Shown in pieces: positions 57,914 to 62,928 of a stretch of DNA of 64,000 nucleotides (the first letter of the stretch is position 1; every line of letters begins with the position of its first letter). The notes beneath the pieces are model-generated. The model searched no databases, was not told the origin of the DNA, and saw nothing but the letters and a program-made list of their open reading frames with translations. The DNA comes from Deltaproteobacteria bacterium (GTDB taxonomy: Bacteria > Desulfobacterota > Syntrophia > Syntrophales > UBA2210). The position numbers and the translations under genes are program-made. Location of the stretch: assembly GCA_019313905.1 (NCBI GenBank), contig JAFDAI010000004.1, positions 1 to 64,000 of the forward strand. Direction: 5' to 3'.

Positions 57914-58408
57914 TTAAAATTCACTGTCTTTTTGCCGTAAGGCAACCACACCGGTCCTTGCGATCTTATCAATACCGAGGGGTCTGAGGAGATTGATGAT
58001 TGTTCCCATCTCTTCCCTGCTTCCCGCAGCCTGGATAATACAGTAATCATTACGCATGGAAATAATCTTGCAATCGAACATGCCGACACACTGTATTACC
58101 TCCGGCCTGTTTTTCTGATCCAGATCGATCCCTATAAGTATCATTTCCCTCTGCGCGGATTGACCCGGGACCAGCTCGGTAACATCCAGGACATCGACCA
58201 GCCGGCTCAACTGCTTTTTCACCTTTTCGATAAAATCCGAATCCGCGTTGGTAATTGACGTTATTCTTGAAACTTCGGGAGAAATCGTCTCCGCCACGCA
58301 GAGACTCTCTATATTATAACCAAGCCTTCCGAATACACCGGTAACCCTGGATAATACACCCGGCTTGTTGTTAACCAGTATCGCAATTATACGTTCTCTC
58401 ATCTCCAT
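57914..58408 (-). CDS. ilvN: Acetolactate synthase regulatory (small) subunit
   Basis: 164 residues. ACT domain at the N-terminus (ILVNNKPGVLSRVTGVFGRL, YNIESLCVAE) that binds valine for feedback control, and a second ACT-like half from about 80. Forms holoenzyme with IlvB. It follows ilvB by 120 bases and is closed by a strong terminator, so ilvB-ilvN is a compact unit. Confidence 0.95.
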   Translation of the reverse strand: MEMRERIIAILVNNKPGVLSRVTGVFGRLGYNIESLCVAETISPEVSRITSITNADSDFIEKVKKQLSRLVDVLDVTELVPGQSAQREMILIGIDLDQKNRPEVIQCVGMFDCKIISMRNDYCIIQAAGSREEMGTIINLLRPLGIDKIARTGVVALRQKDSEF

Positions 58409-58528: not shown

Positions 58529-60208
58529 CTATCCCTGTCTTCCACCTATCATATCTATGTTCGATCCTCCCGGCGGTATGATAGGAAAGACATAAGTATC
58601 GGGATCAACGAGCACCTCCAACAGAAATGGCCCGTCGGCGGCGCACAATTTTTCTATACCTGCCCCGGAATTCTCAACAGGGACCCTGTCGGCCTGGATG
58701 CCGAAGCCCTTGGCTACAGCAACTATATCAACCTTGTCACCCAGTTCTATATCATTGAAGCGGGCGCCATAGAACAGGTCCTGCATCTGGCGTATCATAC
58801 CGAGATGACCGTTGTTGAAGACCACTATCTTGACAGGCAGATTGTAATAACTTATTGTCGCAAGCTCCTGTATGTTCATAAAGAATCCACCGTCTCCCGA
58901 AAAGACAACCACCCCGTGGTCCGGCATTCCGATCTTCACACCCATCGCCGCGGGGAGGCCAAATCCCATCGTACCCAATCCTCCCGGTGTAATCATGCCG
59001 CGAGGAGTTTTTGTTTTCCAGGATCGGACCGTCCATATCTGGTTCAGCCCCACGTCCGTAATAGCTATGGTTTCCTCCGGCATAGCCGTCTGGACATCTC
59101 TGATAAAGGCGCCCGCTGGTCCACATTCTTTCATTGACCTGTCCTTGCCCAGGGCATTTCTTTCTTTCTCTATCCTGTTCAACCACCCGCTCCTCTCTTT
59201 TCTTTCCACGAGTGGAGTCAACTTTGCAAGAGCTTCGTGAATATCACACACCAGGGATATATCCGCCTTTATGACCTTGCCGATGGAGGATGGATCTATA
59301 TCTATCTGGGCAATGGTGGCAAGCGGGGCGAATTCTTTCACGATCGACGTACTGCGATCACTGAAGCGGGCGCCCACTGTCAGGATAAAATCTGAATCGT
59401 GTACGATACGATTGGCCAGTTTATTTCCATGTGTGCCTATGAAGCCCAGATTGAACCCATTTGAAGCGTATACCGAACCAATGCCCATCATTGTTGAAAC
59501 AAACGGGATATTCCCCTTTTCAATCAATCCGGCAAGTTCCTCACATGCCTGGGAGAGTTTCACGCCTCCACCGATGAGAATAACCGGCCTTTCAGACATA
59601 TTCATATAGTTCGCGATTTGCTGCAGCTGTTTCTTATCTTTTTTGCTCTCCGCATGCTGTTTCCCCGGCACTGTAGCTGCGGCATCCTCATCTTCACTTT
59701 GTTCACACTTTGCAGCCATTACGTTTCTCGGAAGGTCTATAAGGACAGGTCCGGGCCGGCCGCTCCTCGCAATCTCAAACGCCTGTTTTACAGTGGCTTC
59801 CACCTCGCCCGGATCACTTACCAGGTAGCTGTGTTTTGTGATGGGCATGGTAATCCCTATTATGTCAGTTTCCTGAAAGGCATCGCTTCCCAGAAGCTCC
59901 GTCGTTACCTGCCCTGTGAGGACGACCATGGGAGTTGAATCCATGTACGCCGTTGCAATACCGGTTACCAGGTTGGTAGCACCCGGACCCGAAGTGCCCA
60001 TACATACACCAACCTTGCCGGTTGCCCTGGCGTAGCCATCCGCGGCATGAGCGGCCGCCTGTTCATGTCTCACAAGATAATGTCTTATCGGGCTTTCATC
60101 CAGACTGTCGTGAATGGGCAGGCTGTTCGCCCCTGGATATCCGAAGATAACCTCAACGCCCTCTTTTCTCAATGCCTGCAGCAGTATTTCAGCTCCTGTC
60201 TTTTCCAT
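58529..60208 (-). CDS. ilvB: Acetolactate synthase catalytic (large) subunit
   Basis: 559 residues. TPP-dependent enzyme making acetolactate or acetohydroxybutyrate, the first common step to Val, Leu and Ile. Motifs: VIFGYPGANSLPIHD with RHEQAAAHAADGYARATGK (catalytic Glu), the FAD-domain middle, and the TPP motif VFSGDGGFFMNIQELATISY. The ATG at 60208 has GGGGAG upstream; the frame extends to 60286 without homology. Expression is expected to be controlled by the leader attenuator upstream. Confidence 0.97.
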   Translation of the reverse strand: MEKTGAEILLQALRKEGVEVIFGYPGANSLPIHDSLDESPIRHYLVRHEQAAAHAADGYARATGKVGVCMGTSGPGATNLVTGIATAYMDSTPMVVLTGQVTTELLGSDAFQETDIIGITMPITKHSYLVSDPGEVEATVKQAFEIARSGRPGPVLIDLPRNVMAAKCEQSEDEDAAATVPGKQHAESKKDKKQLQQIANYMNMSERPVILIGGGVKLSQACEELAGLIEKGNIPFVSTMMGIGSVYASNGFNLGFIGTHGNKLANRIVHDSDFILTVGARFSDRSTSIVKEFAPLATIAQIDIDPSSIGKVIKADISLVCDIHEALAKLTPLVERKERSGWLNRIEKERNALGKDRSMKECGPAGAFIRDVQTAMPEETIAITDVGLNQIWTVRSWKTKTPRGMITPGGLGTMGFGLPAAMGVKIGMPDHGVVVFSGDGGFFMNIQELATISYYNLPVKIVVFNNGHLGMIRQMQDLFYGARFNDIELGDKVDIVAVAKGFGIQADRVPVENSGAGIEKLCAADGPFLLEVLVDPDTYVFPIIPPGGSNIDMIGGRQG

Positions 60209-60268: not shown

Positions 60269-60314
60269 AGGCAAATAAAAAGCCACAAACTCTTTATGCG
60301 AGATGCGGCTTTTC

Positions 60315-60349
60315 TACAAAAAAGCCGCGGGCTTTGGGGCCCGCGGCTT
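60315..60349 (-). terminator. Attenuator terminator in the ilvB leader
   Basis: On the minus strand AAGCCGCGGGC, a 6-base loop, GCCCGCGGCTT, then TTTTTTG. An 11-bp GC-rich stem with a U-tract, placed between the leader peptide and ilvB. A second hairpin can form from the terminator 3' arm and a downstream GAAAAGCCGC. Confidence 0.85.
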
Positions 60350-60384
60350 GATTTCTTTTTTAGTCCATCAGGATCAAGCAGCGG
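60341..60384 (-). promoter_or_regulatory. Antiterminator pairing in the ilvB leader
   Basis: The leader RNA segment CCGCTGCTTGAT (60373-60384), which spans the end of the leader peptide and its stop, is complementary with one mismatch to ATCAAGCCGCGG (60341-60352), the 5' arm of the terminator. A ribosome stalled on upstream Val/Leu codons would leave the first segment free to pair and block termination. Confidence 0.75.
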
Positions 60385-60457
60385 TCCCCGTAAGTACTAC
60401 TACGAGTACGAGTACACTTACCAAAACTGTAACCGCTTTTTCAAATGGACGTATCAC
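60374..60457 (-). CDS. Val/Leu-rich ilv leader peptide
   Basis: 27 codons from a GTG at 60457 to TGA at 60374-60376, preceded by GAGGAG at a good distance. It reads MIRPFEKAVTVLVSVLVLV then VVLTGTAA: eight Val and four Leu codons, most in one cluster, five of the Val codons being GTA. Peptides like this (ivbL of E. coli) sense charged tRNA-Val and tRNA-Leu. The terminator and antiterminator pairing follow it directly. Confidence 0.85.
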   Translation of the reverse strand: MIRPFEKAVTVLVSVLVLVVVLTGTAA

Positions 60458-60490
60458 TGACTGTTCTCCTCAAACGAAATTAAATCCAAC

Positions 60491-60516
60491 CTTATATAAA
60501 AAAACTCTTTTGTCAA
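60491..60516 (-). promoter_or_regulatory. Possible promoter of the ilv leader
   Basis: On the minus strand TTGACA (60511-60516) followed by a T-rich spacer and TATAAG (60491-60496). The spacer is only 14 bases, shorter than usual. Confidence 0.4.
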
Positions 60517-60531
60517 GAGATTTCTCAACCG

Positions 60532-62928
60532 TCAATCCCCTGAATCAAGATCATACTGGAAAAATTCTTTATCTTCGCTGGCATCATCCTCGGGTACAAT
60601 TTCGGTAGGCGCCGTTCCCTCCAGAAAACATTCAAATATGTATTTTTCGGAGCCAGGACCAGCCAGAGCTCCTGTTTCGGGATCTATTTTGGCAAATACA
60701 ACTCCCTCGGGAGGCGAGAAAGATTCAACCGGAGTACCGGCAAGCGCCTTTTCCATAAAATATAAAAAGATGGGACTGGCGGCACGTGAACCAGTTTCAT
60801 GTTTACCCAGTGGTTTCAGATCATCAAAACCGACCCATACACCCGCGGCAAGCGAAGGGGTAAATCCCATAAACCATGCATCCTTGAGATCATTGGTTGT
60901 GCCTGTCTTGCCTGCCACAGGCCTGCCAAGGGCTTTTACCCGCCAACCGGTGCCTCCTTTGACAACCTCCTGGAGCAGATGAGAGGCTATATATGCGATG
61001 CCGGAATCAACAACCTGTTCTACTTCAGGCACATTCTCCTCCACTATGTTGCCGGTGCGGTCAACAATCTTCTTTATAAAGAATGGTCTGACCCTCTTGC
61101 CTCCATTCGCGAAAATTCCATAACCCCTTACCATCTCCAGAAGCGTCACGCCCGATGTCCCGAGGGCCATGGAAAGGTCTCTCGTGAGTGGGGTTGTTAT
61201 CCCCATATTAACAGCGTAATCAGCAGCATAATTTATCCCGATCTCCTTCAGGAGTTTTATGGTTACCAGATTCCTCGATTTGATGAGAGCAGTCCTTAGA
61301 GTTGTGGGGCCGTAAAACTTCTCTGAAAAATTTCGCGGTTTCCAGAGACTGTCCTTCAGTGTATCTCTGTAGATGACAGGGCTGTCCATAAGTGTGGTCG
61401 CGGGAGTCATGCCCTTGTCAAAAGCCGCGGTAAATATAAAGGGTTTGAAAGCGGACCCCGGTTGTCTTTTTGACTGTGTGGCGCGGTTGAACTCACTCTT
61501 TTTGTAGCTTCTGCCCCCGACCATCGCTTTTATCTTTCCGGTATTCGAGTCCATGGCGAGAAGTGCGCCCTGCACCAGAGGTTCCTGCTCCAGGGCCAGC
61601 TCCAGCTTTCCATCCGCAACGCTCAGGACCTTCACTTTCACGACATCTCCTGTCTTGAGCACATCCGCCGGATCTTTAACTTTAGCCGCATTGTAGGCAA
61701 TTTTCGGATCGGGTACCCTGGCCCACGACATATTTTTCAGCGTCATAGTGCCTTCATATTCGCCCACCCTTAATCTTACAATTTTTTCCCCGCTGTCCAC
61801 ATCCACCACGATGGCCTTCACAATACGGCCCTCCAGTGGCTTATCCATGTCCACTTTCATGTCTTGCACAAAAAACTCAATGTCTTCCTCGGGCACCCTT
61901 TTCAGAACTCCTCTGTACCCCTGTCTCTTGTCCAGTTCTCTCAGCCCTTTTGCCACGGCATCCCTGGCCGCCTTCTGACAGGTCATGTCCAGTGTGGTAT
62001 ATACCTCAAGACCTTCTCTATACAGGACATCGCTGCCATATTTAGTCTGGATATACCGGCGGACGTTTTCGGTAAAATAGGGCGCTATCTTATCCTTGCT
62101 CTCGGCCTTTTTCAGCTCTACAGGCGCTTCGATCGCTGCCATCTTCTCCTTTTCCGTTATGTATCCATCCTCTGCCATCCTGTTCAGGACGTAGATCTGT
62201 CTCCGGCGGGCACGTTCGGGATGCAGTGAAGGGGAATACCTGCTGGGGGCCTTGGGAAGACCTGCAAGGAGGGCCGCTTCAGAAAGGGTAAGTTTCTCGG
62301 CGGATTTTGCGAAATAGTGTTGCGACGCGGTTTCTATACCATACGCCCCATGTCCGAGATATATATGGTTCAGATAGAGGTTGAGTATCTCATATTTCTT
62401 TAAATATTTGTCTATCCTGTAGGCCAGAATAGCCTCTTTCAGTTTCCTGATATATTTCTTCTCCGGTGACAGGAAAAGAGATTTGGCTACCTGCTGAGTT
62501 ATGGTGCTTCCCCCCTGAACGATTGTTCCCGCCTCCACGTTTTTAAAAAAGGCCCTGATAATACTGTTGATATCGATTCCCTTGTGGCGAAAGAAACGGG
62601 CGTCCTCTGCCGCCACAAATACCTGTATTACAAATTTTGGCAGATCGGTAACCTGGACAACCTTCCTGTCTTCAAGATAGAACTCGTCAATCAACTGGTC
62701 GTTGTCCGCGTATACTCTGGTTATTATGCTGGGCCGGTAATCCTTCAGTGAAGAGATGCTGGGCAATCCATCCACAAGAAAATAGATGAACCCCGCCCCT
62801 GCAAGGGTCGGCAGGAGGGCCAGGACGAAGATCCAGAGAAAGATTCTCTTTACAATCCCCCCCTTCTTTGTTCTTTTCTTTCCTATATCTTTCATCAATT
62901 GTTGCTTATTATTCATCATCTTTTTCAT
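60532..62928 (-). CDS. mrcA: Penicillin-binding protein 1A (bifunctional transglycosylase/transpeptidase)
   Basis: About 798 residues. Cytoplasmic basic N-terminus, one membrane anchor, GT51 glycosyltransferase (AAEDARFFRHKGIDI, GGSTITQQVAKSLFLSPEKK), an OB-like insertion, and transpeptidase with SxxK in RQPGSAFKPFI, SxN in IKSRNLV and KTG in GKTGTTNDLKDAW. Polymerises and cross-links peptidoglycan. The acidic tail ends QYDLDSGD. Start uncertain: several ATGs (62928, 62919, 62916) occur in the overlap with tatC, none with a strong site. The name mrcA/ponA reflects class only. Confidence 0.93.
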   Translation of the reverse strand: MKKMMNNKQQLMKDIGKKRTKKGGIVKRIFLWIFVLALLPTLAGAGFIYFLVDGLPSISSLKDYRPSIITRVYADNDQLIDEFYLEDRKVVQVTDLPKFVIQVFVAAEDARFFRHKGIDINSIIRAFFKNVEAGTIVQGGSTITQQVAKSLFLSPEKKYIRKLKEAILAYRIDKYLKKYEILNLYLNHIYLGHGAYGIETASQHYFAKSAEKLTLSEAALLAGLPKAPSRYSPSLHPERARRRQIYVLNRMAEDGYITEKEKMAAIEAPVELKKAESKDKIAPYFTENVRRYIQTKYGSDVLYREGLEVYTTLDMTCQKAARDAVAKGLRELDKRQGYRGVLKRVPEEDIEFFVQDMKVDMDKPLEGRIVKAIVVDVDSGEKIVRLRVGEYEGTMTLKNMSWARVPDPKIAYNAAKVKDPADVLKTGDVVKVKVLSVADGKLELALEQEPLVQGALLAMDSNTGKIKAMVGGRSYKKSEFNRATQSKRQPGSAFKPFIFTAAFDKGMTPATTLMDSPVIYRDTLKDSLWKPRNFSEKFYGPTTLRTALIKSRNLVTIKLLKEIGINYAADYAVNMGITTPLTRDLSMALGTSGVTLLEMVRGYGIFANGGKRVRPFFIKKIVDRTGNIVEENVPEVEQVVDSGIAYIASHLLQEVVKGGTGWRVKALGRPVAGKTGTTNDLKDAWFMGFTPSLAAGVWVGFDDLKPLGKHETGSRAASPIFLYFMEKALAGTPVESFSPPEGVVFAKIDPETGALAGPGSEKYIFECFLEGTAPTEIVPEDDASEDKEFFQYDLDSGD

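Follow-up and report, generated by a model that had tools for sequence, protein, structure and literature searches.

Results

A Val/Leu leader peptide and a tandem hairpin element precede ilvBN

The window, that is, the whole 64,000-nt stretch of DNA analyzed here, carries ilvB and ilvN on its minus strand. Upstream of ilvBN lies an intergenic stretch (60518-60209, minus strand) that holds the candidate attenuator; its 5′ neighbor, assigned by eye, is a penicillin-binding-protein-like gene with a stop codon near 60532. The genes and elements are as follows.

60491-60516, minus strand: promoter-like TTGACA (60516-60511) and TATAAG (60496-60491), spacer 14, from the sequence
60466-60471, minus strand: Shine-Dalgarno sequence of the leader, GAGGAG, from the sequence
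60374-60457, minus strand: leader peptide frame, GTG start, 27 codons, Val/Leu-rich, ending in GTAA-stop, from the sequence; kept in 99 of 100 aligned relatives
60432-60450, minus strand: region 1, start of the leader frame, predicted to pair with region 2 and onward past the stop codon as far as 60363, from the fold and pairing versus shuffles
60373-60389, minus strand: region 2, 5′ strand of the antiterminator, GGGGACCGCTGCTTGAT, containing the leader stop codon, from sequence and aligned pairing
60336-60352, minus strand: region 3, 3′ strand of the antiterminator, overlapping the 5′ arm and loop of terminator 1, from sequence and aligned pairing
60318-60349, minus strand: terminator 1 (3:4), 11-bp stem with a U6 tract at 60323-60318, from sequence and aligned pairing
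60320-60328, minus strand: region 4, 3′ arm of terminator 1, GCGGCTTTT, complementary to region 5, from the sequence
60305-60313, minus strand: region 5, 5′ arm of terminator 2, AAAAGCCGC, from the sequence
60277-60313, minus strand: terminator 2 (T2, 5:6), a second hairpin at 60313-60278 with a U-tract to 60277, from sequence, aligned pairing, and a control
58529-60208, minus strand: ilvB, acetolactate synthase large subunit, 559 aa, start at 60208 (TIGR00118)
57914-58408, minus strand: ilvN, acetolactate synthase small subunit, downstream of ilvB (NF008864)

The initial annotation had described a 27-residue frame with eight Val and four Leu codons behind GAGGAG, followed by an 11-bp terminator with a U-tract, and re-reading of the sequence bore out both. 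The predicted leader product, MIRPFEKAVTVLVSVLVLVVVLTGTAA, comprises 27 aa with 8 Val and 4 Leu. In the 100 copies that we aligned for the pairing and leader tests, the frame is open in all but one; Val, Leu, and Ile make up 22%, 16%, and 7% of the codons of this predicted frame, and 97 of the 100 leaders have at least four Val. The frame ends in GTAA-stop in the genus of the window versus GTAARFL-stop, three codons later, in many relatives. Nearly all inspected relatives have the TTGACA hexamer in this position, and the promoter-like call is nevertheless weak because its spacing of 14 is short. The Val codons of the aligned leaders are mostly GTA (418/621 versus 31/141 in four neighboring genes), a bias that may arise from a codon preference linked to sensing or from the GUAC motif, which pairs with itself in the 1:2 stem.

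The antiterminator is conserved and is predicted to exclude terminator 1

A 12-nt antiterminator had been proposed to arise directly from the end of the leader coding region. The pairing of 60384-60373 (CCGCTGCTTGAT) with 60352-60341 (ATCAAGCCGCGG) is indeed present with one mismatch, and its 5′ strand takes in the leader stop codon; the proposed length, however, was too short, as complementarity reaches 17 nt with two mismatches between GGGGaCCGCuGCUUGAU (60389-60373) and AUCAAGCcGCGGgCCCC (60352-60336). Across the 100 aligned copies, 94.8% of antiterminator cells form standard pairs, compared to 39.5 to 63.2% when the strands are slid, a count that leaves out two mostly mismatched positions. 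The covariation anticipated for this helix was found as well, with a score above that of every shuffle. We looked in relatives for a breakdown of the antiterminator pairing or for leaders without Val/Leu codons, either of which would have spoken against attenuation; both features are kept at the frequencies given above.

Upstream, we identified a putative protector helix (1:2) both in the fold of the window and by comparing pairing with shuffles: the region 2 core is 76% paired with the leader start versus 48% in shuffled leaders, and real leaders exceed shuffled ones in 47 of 50. When region 1 is left out of the computed folds, region 2 wins over terminator 1 in 65 of 100 copies; the same holds for the window, with respective values of 0.99 and 0.004. 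Antiterminator and terminator 1 are thus mutually exclusive at the level of predicted structure, and a translating ribosome would presumably decide between them by masking region 2. Given the usual ribosome footprint, stalling in the Val run would leave the 12 nt of the originally proposed antiterminator, if not more, uncovered, and region 2 would be covered by a ribosome that has reached the stop codon.

The leader region as a whole folds 3.9 SDs better than shuffles (z = −3.9). This, together with the recovery of the element by a covariance model in 144 of 155 genomes (see below), argues that it is not a chance structure.

A second terminator-like hairpin follows the first

The stem of terminator 1 (60349-60322) has 11 pairs, nine of them G-C, and is followed by its U-tract; by sequence and structure, an intrinsic terminator is therefore predicted ahead of the first structural gene. 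The attenuator had been considered complete at 60315-60457. The parts listed within these limits are all present, but the downstream boundary is not where it had been placed, since the T2 hairpin (60313-60278), which had been missed, comes next. Jointly, the two terminators are 94.0% paired in the 100 aligned copies versus 35 to 58% when slid.

Such tandem arrangements are rare in control DNA. In 464 kb from the order, both strands included, only one of 223 terminator-like hairpins has another within 35 nt, and this sole case is the ilvB leader of the window itself; the single terminator-like hairpin behind ilvN (57833-57806) represents the ordinary situation. By the same terminator finder, at settings slightly looser than those used for the control DNA, tandem terminators were called in 27 of 30 ilvB leaders that had been found through their protein. 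This figure includes L027, whose leader is of the Ile type and shows just one evident terminator by eye, and misses L030, in which T2 is present in the covariance model.

With a median of −16 kcal/mol, the T2 stem is weaker than the stem of terminator 1 (−20 kcal/mol), as might be expected if T2 were not a terminator but a hairpin for RNA stability or processing, placed either 5′ on the ilvBN message or 3′ on a short leader RNA. We regard this as improbable in view of the conserved U-tract that stands behind the T2 stem in almost every copy. Standing about 70 nt ahead of ilvB, T2 should be conditional, since a terminator that always acted at this point would shut off the operon. In most members of one family (f14; L145, L149, L202-L254), the U-tract of terminator 1 is broken by a G (UUUGUUG) and that of T2 is intact, so T2 may be the stronger stop there.

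The element is widespread in the order Syntrophales

The ilvB protein was present in 40 of 41 related genomes, and 30 loci were recovered. Most of their upstream regions contain a Val/Leu run (e.g., GTACTCGTAGTAGTACTTAC), the sequence GGGGACCGCTGCT(C/T)G, its antiterminator partner GAGCCGCGGGCCCC, and a terminator. A covariance model, R1, built from 20 ilvB loci of relatives, found matches in 144 of 155 genomes of the order Syntrophales. Exact-pattern matches that also scored with R1 came from genomes named as Syntrophaceae, Syntrophales, and “Deltaproteobacteria” MAGs. By these names, the organism carrying the window belongs to the Syntrophales, which used to be counted among the Deltaproteobacteria. 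Several R1 matches on the opposite strand were discarded as palindrome artifacts. When the window was searched against Rfam (release 15), including its other amino-acid leaders, no model reached its gathering score and no permissive match was credible.

Leaders of other amino acid specificities share the two-hairpin tail

Among the other SPECIFICITIES, the weaker R1 matches proved to be other attenuators with the same two-hairpin tail, including trpE with an NWWWW leader. Outside the order, R1 matches lay ahead of leuA with Leu-rich leaders, of one ilvB, and of DAHP synthase and 2-amino-3,7-dideoxy-heptulosonate (ADH) synthase genes with Tyr/Phe- or Trp-rich leaders. In five loci from other orders (L178, L179, L185, L189, and L192), Tyr/Phe-rich leaders stand before ADH synthase-like genes of the alternative aromatic pathway.

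Phe-rich leaders (e.g., GFFSFFGFFAGVCPPRS) were found before a Peripla_BP_6 substrate-binding protein, as seen at L156, L157, L158, L159, L163, L167, and L194, the last in the genome of the window (C151); L156 also has an ABC-ATPase-like frame, assigned by eye. Their position suggests that this ABC transporter is a phenylalanine- or aromatic-type importer. At L164, a Phe-type leader lies ahead of an acyl-CoA ligase gene. Two loci, L027 and L028, belong to a second group of ilvB paralogs, with an Ile-rich leader (e.g., MRKTGATNIQSAGIIIGIIIITSYMYGGWVMV) in place of Val/Leu.

Because R1 contains T2, its matches are selected for T2, and we therefore gathered trp leaders independently, via the trpE protein. 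A Trp-run leader was present in 26 of 28 readable loci, and nearly all of these 26 show both hairpins. The finder listed two neighboring hairpins in at least 22 of the 26; by a stricter script, L285 and L290 came out unpaired and L294 and L299 were miscalled. Within the phylum, T2 also occurs in leaders of the Tyr/Phe, Leu, and Phe types. The genome of the window alone carries the design three times, at ilvB, at trpE (L278), and at the Phe-type leader.

Matching codons in the trp, Leu, and Tyr/Phe relatives, the conserved Val/Leu frame, and the lack of an Rfam family match all speak against a T-box, a small-molecule riboswitch, or any other non-ribosomal sensor as the controlling device. No support for such a sensor was found, and we consider control of this kind highly implausible.

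Regions 4 and 5 are complementary and might couple the two terminators

Region 4 is complementary to region 5, with a 6-nt loop between them. Computed folds in which region 3 is sequestered and region 6 is not yet made give a 4:5 pairing probability of about 1 for every one of the 100 copies; the median falls to 0.03 when region 2 is masked. Once region 6 is made, T2 equals or exceeds 4:5 at equilibrium in most copies (0.86 versus 0.14 in the window), so a 4:5 step would have to be kinetic.

This complementarity can also be read in another way, namely, that the attenuator is classical, T2 is a mere fail-safe for polymerases that escape terminator 1, and regions 4 and 5 match only because the terminator stems are alike. 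Both stems do share an outer AAGCCGC/GCGGCTT, and the equilibrium preference for T2 fits the same reading. We therefore compared own with swapped 4:5 pairs. Own pairs were stronger in ilvB leaders (mean −17.2 versus −15.9 kcal/mol; 0/5000), within the largest ilvB family (108/5000), and in a diverse set of 18 leaders from the phylum, scored on non-overlapping segments (−19.3 versus −17.1; 0/10000), although shared base composition within lineages may help the last result. The gain was not significant in most single families nor within the trp leaders.

In one large family, a G occurs in the U-tract of terminator 1 exactly where the 5′ arm of T2 has a C left without a partner in the 3′ arm of T2. 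The resulting +4/−4 G/C contingency (28/33 versus 2/67) is not counted as many events, as the double change behind it is essentially a single one on the tree. A mirror control gave divided results: 4:5 is stronger than 3:6 in 86 of 100 ilvB leaders, but in the diverse leaders 3:6 is about as good and 4:5 is not favored.

The advantage of own over swapped pairs and the ilvB mirror control argue against a mere fail-safe, as does the consideration that T2, unless released by the antiterminator, would stop wanted transcripts too. Equally, the evidence for 4:5 is suggestive and not decisive, and one control fails to back the pairing outside ilvB. We judge the fail-safe reading a serious contender, if somewhat short of an even chance, and 4:5 coupling in the element of the window to be about evenly balanced between true and false. 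For the relay as a design common to the Desulfobacterota, in which region 4, freed by the antiterminator, sequesters region 5 in Val/Leu (ilvB), Trp (trpE and DAHP synthase), Leu (leuA), Tyr/Phe (DAHP and ADH synthases), and Phe (ABC transporter) leaders, our confidence falls just under the midpoint.

Discussion

The element upstream of ilvBN is very probably a ribosome-mediated Val/Leu transcription attenuator with two terminators. Comparison of the aligned copies establishes, at the level of sequence and predicted structure, the leader and the 1:2, 2:3, 3:4, and 5:6 elements together with their conservation. Ribosome-mediated attenuation, the reading first offered for this locus, stands on its leader, antiterminator, and terminator, all now retraced in the 100 copies; that account was incomplete in omitting the 1:2 helix, T2, and a possible 4:5 coupling. 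We infer that the signal is ribosome stalling, set by the charging of Val- and Leu-tRNA, and that T2 terminates, with 4:5 perhaps forming in the cell. Val/Leu supply as the signal is well grounded because the leader and antiterminator tests and the ribosome geometry agree with it.

Under the proposed mechanism, ample charged tRNA would let the ribosome reach the stop codon and cover region 2; region 3 would then pair with region 4 to form terminator 1, and in any polymerase that passed it, region 5 would pair with region 6 to form T2. With charged tRNA scarce, the ribosome would stall in the Val/Leu run, leaving region 2 free to pair with region 3. Terminator 1 could not form because region 3 would be taken, and region 4 would be left to pair with region 5 ahead of the synthesis of region 6. 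This would block T2 too, and ilvBN would be transcribed. The relay would thus have two states, 2:3 with 4:5 for readthrough, and 1:2, 3:4, and 5:6 for two successive stops.

The enterobacterial ivbL-ilvBN and ilvL-ilvGMEDA attenuators each have one terminator. The element described here resembles them in its Val/Leu(-Ile)-rich leader, its alternative 1:2, 2:3, and 3:4 helices, and the ilvB-type gene downstream, but it adds T2, whose 5′ arm is complementary to the 3′ arm of terminator 1. Attenuators of ilvB are known in several lineages, and the ilvB-OMG, ilvB, and ilvB-II RNA motifs likewise precede ilvB, carry a uORF with many branched-chain codons, and have been proposed to act by attenuation (PMC10272879). 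Our element shares their position and type of uORF and differs from them by the Rfam comparison, in which none of the models scored above threshold on the window.

Tandem arrangements have precedents elsewhere. The rimP leader of some Gammaproteobacteria has two tandem terminators, the upstream one with a possible antiterminator and with no reported coupling between the two (PMC2965389); the gene and sensor are unrelated, and there is no amino-acid leader peptide. The Salmonella mgtCBR leader also has two decision points, and is reported to involve two short ORFs (PMC3641672), whereas a single ORF would serve both hairpins here. We found no account of tandem terminators in amino-acid attenuators, or of such attenuators in this phylum, in the open-licence literature, a scope that makes this absence weak evidence.

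The textbook picture of attenuation comes mostly from enterobacterial leaders that have a single terminator. The attenuator of ilvBN is itself of a known kind; what is distinctive is the conserved T2 common to several specificities in the phylum. R1 can be used to search for leaders that Rfam lacks, and the leaders offer specificity predictions for the genes behind them, as with the Phe-type leader before an amino-acid-type ABC transporter. If T2 is conserved across specificities in this phylum, which is not that of the enterobacteria, the standard attenuation scheme would be incomplete there. If the relay holds true, it would offer a simple route to tighter shut-off without losing full induction.
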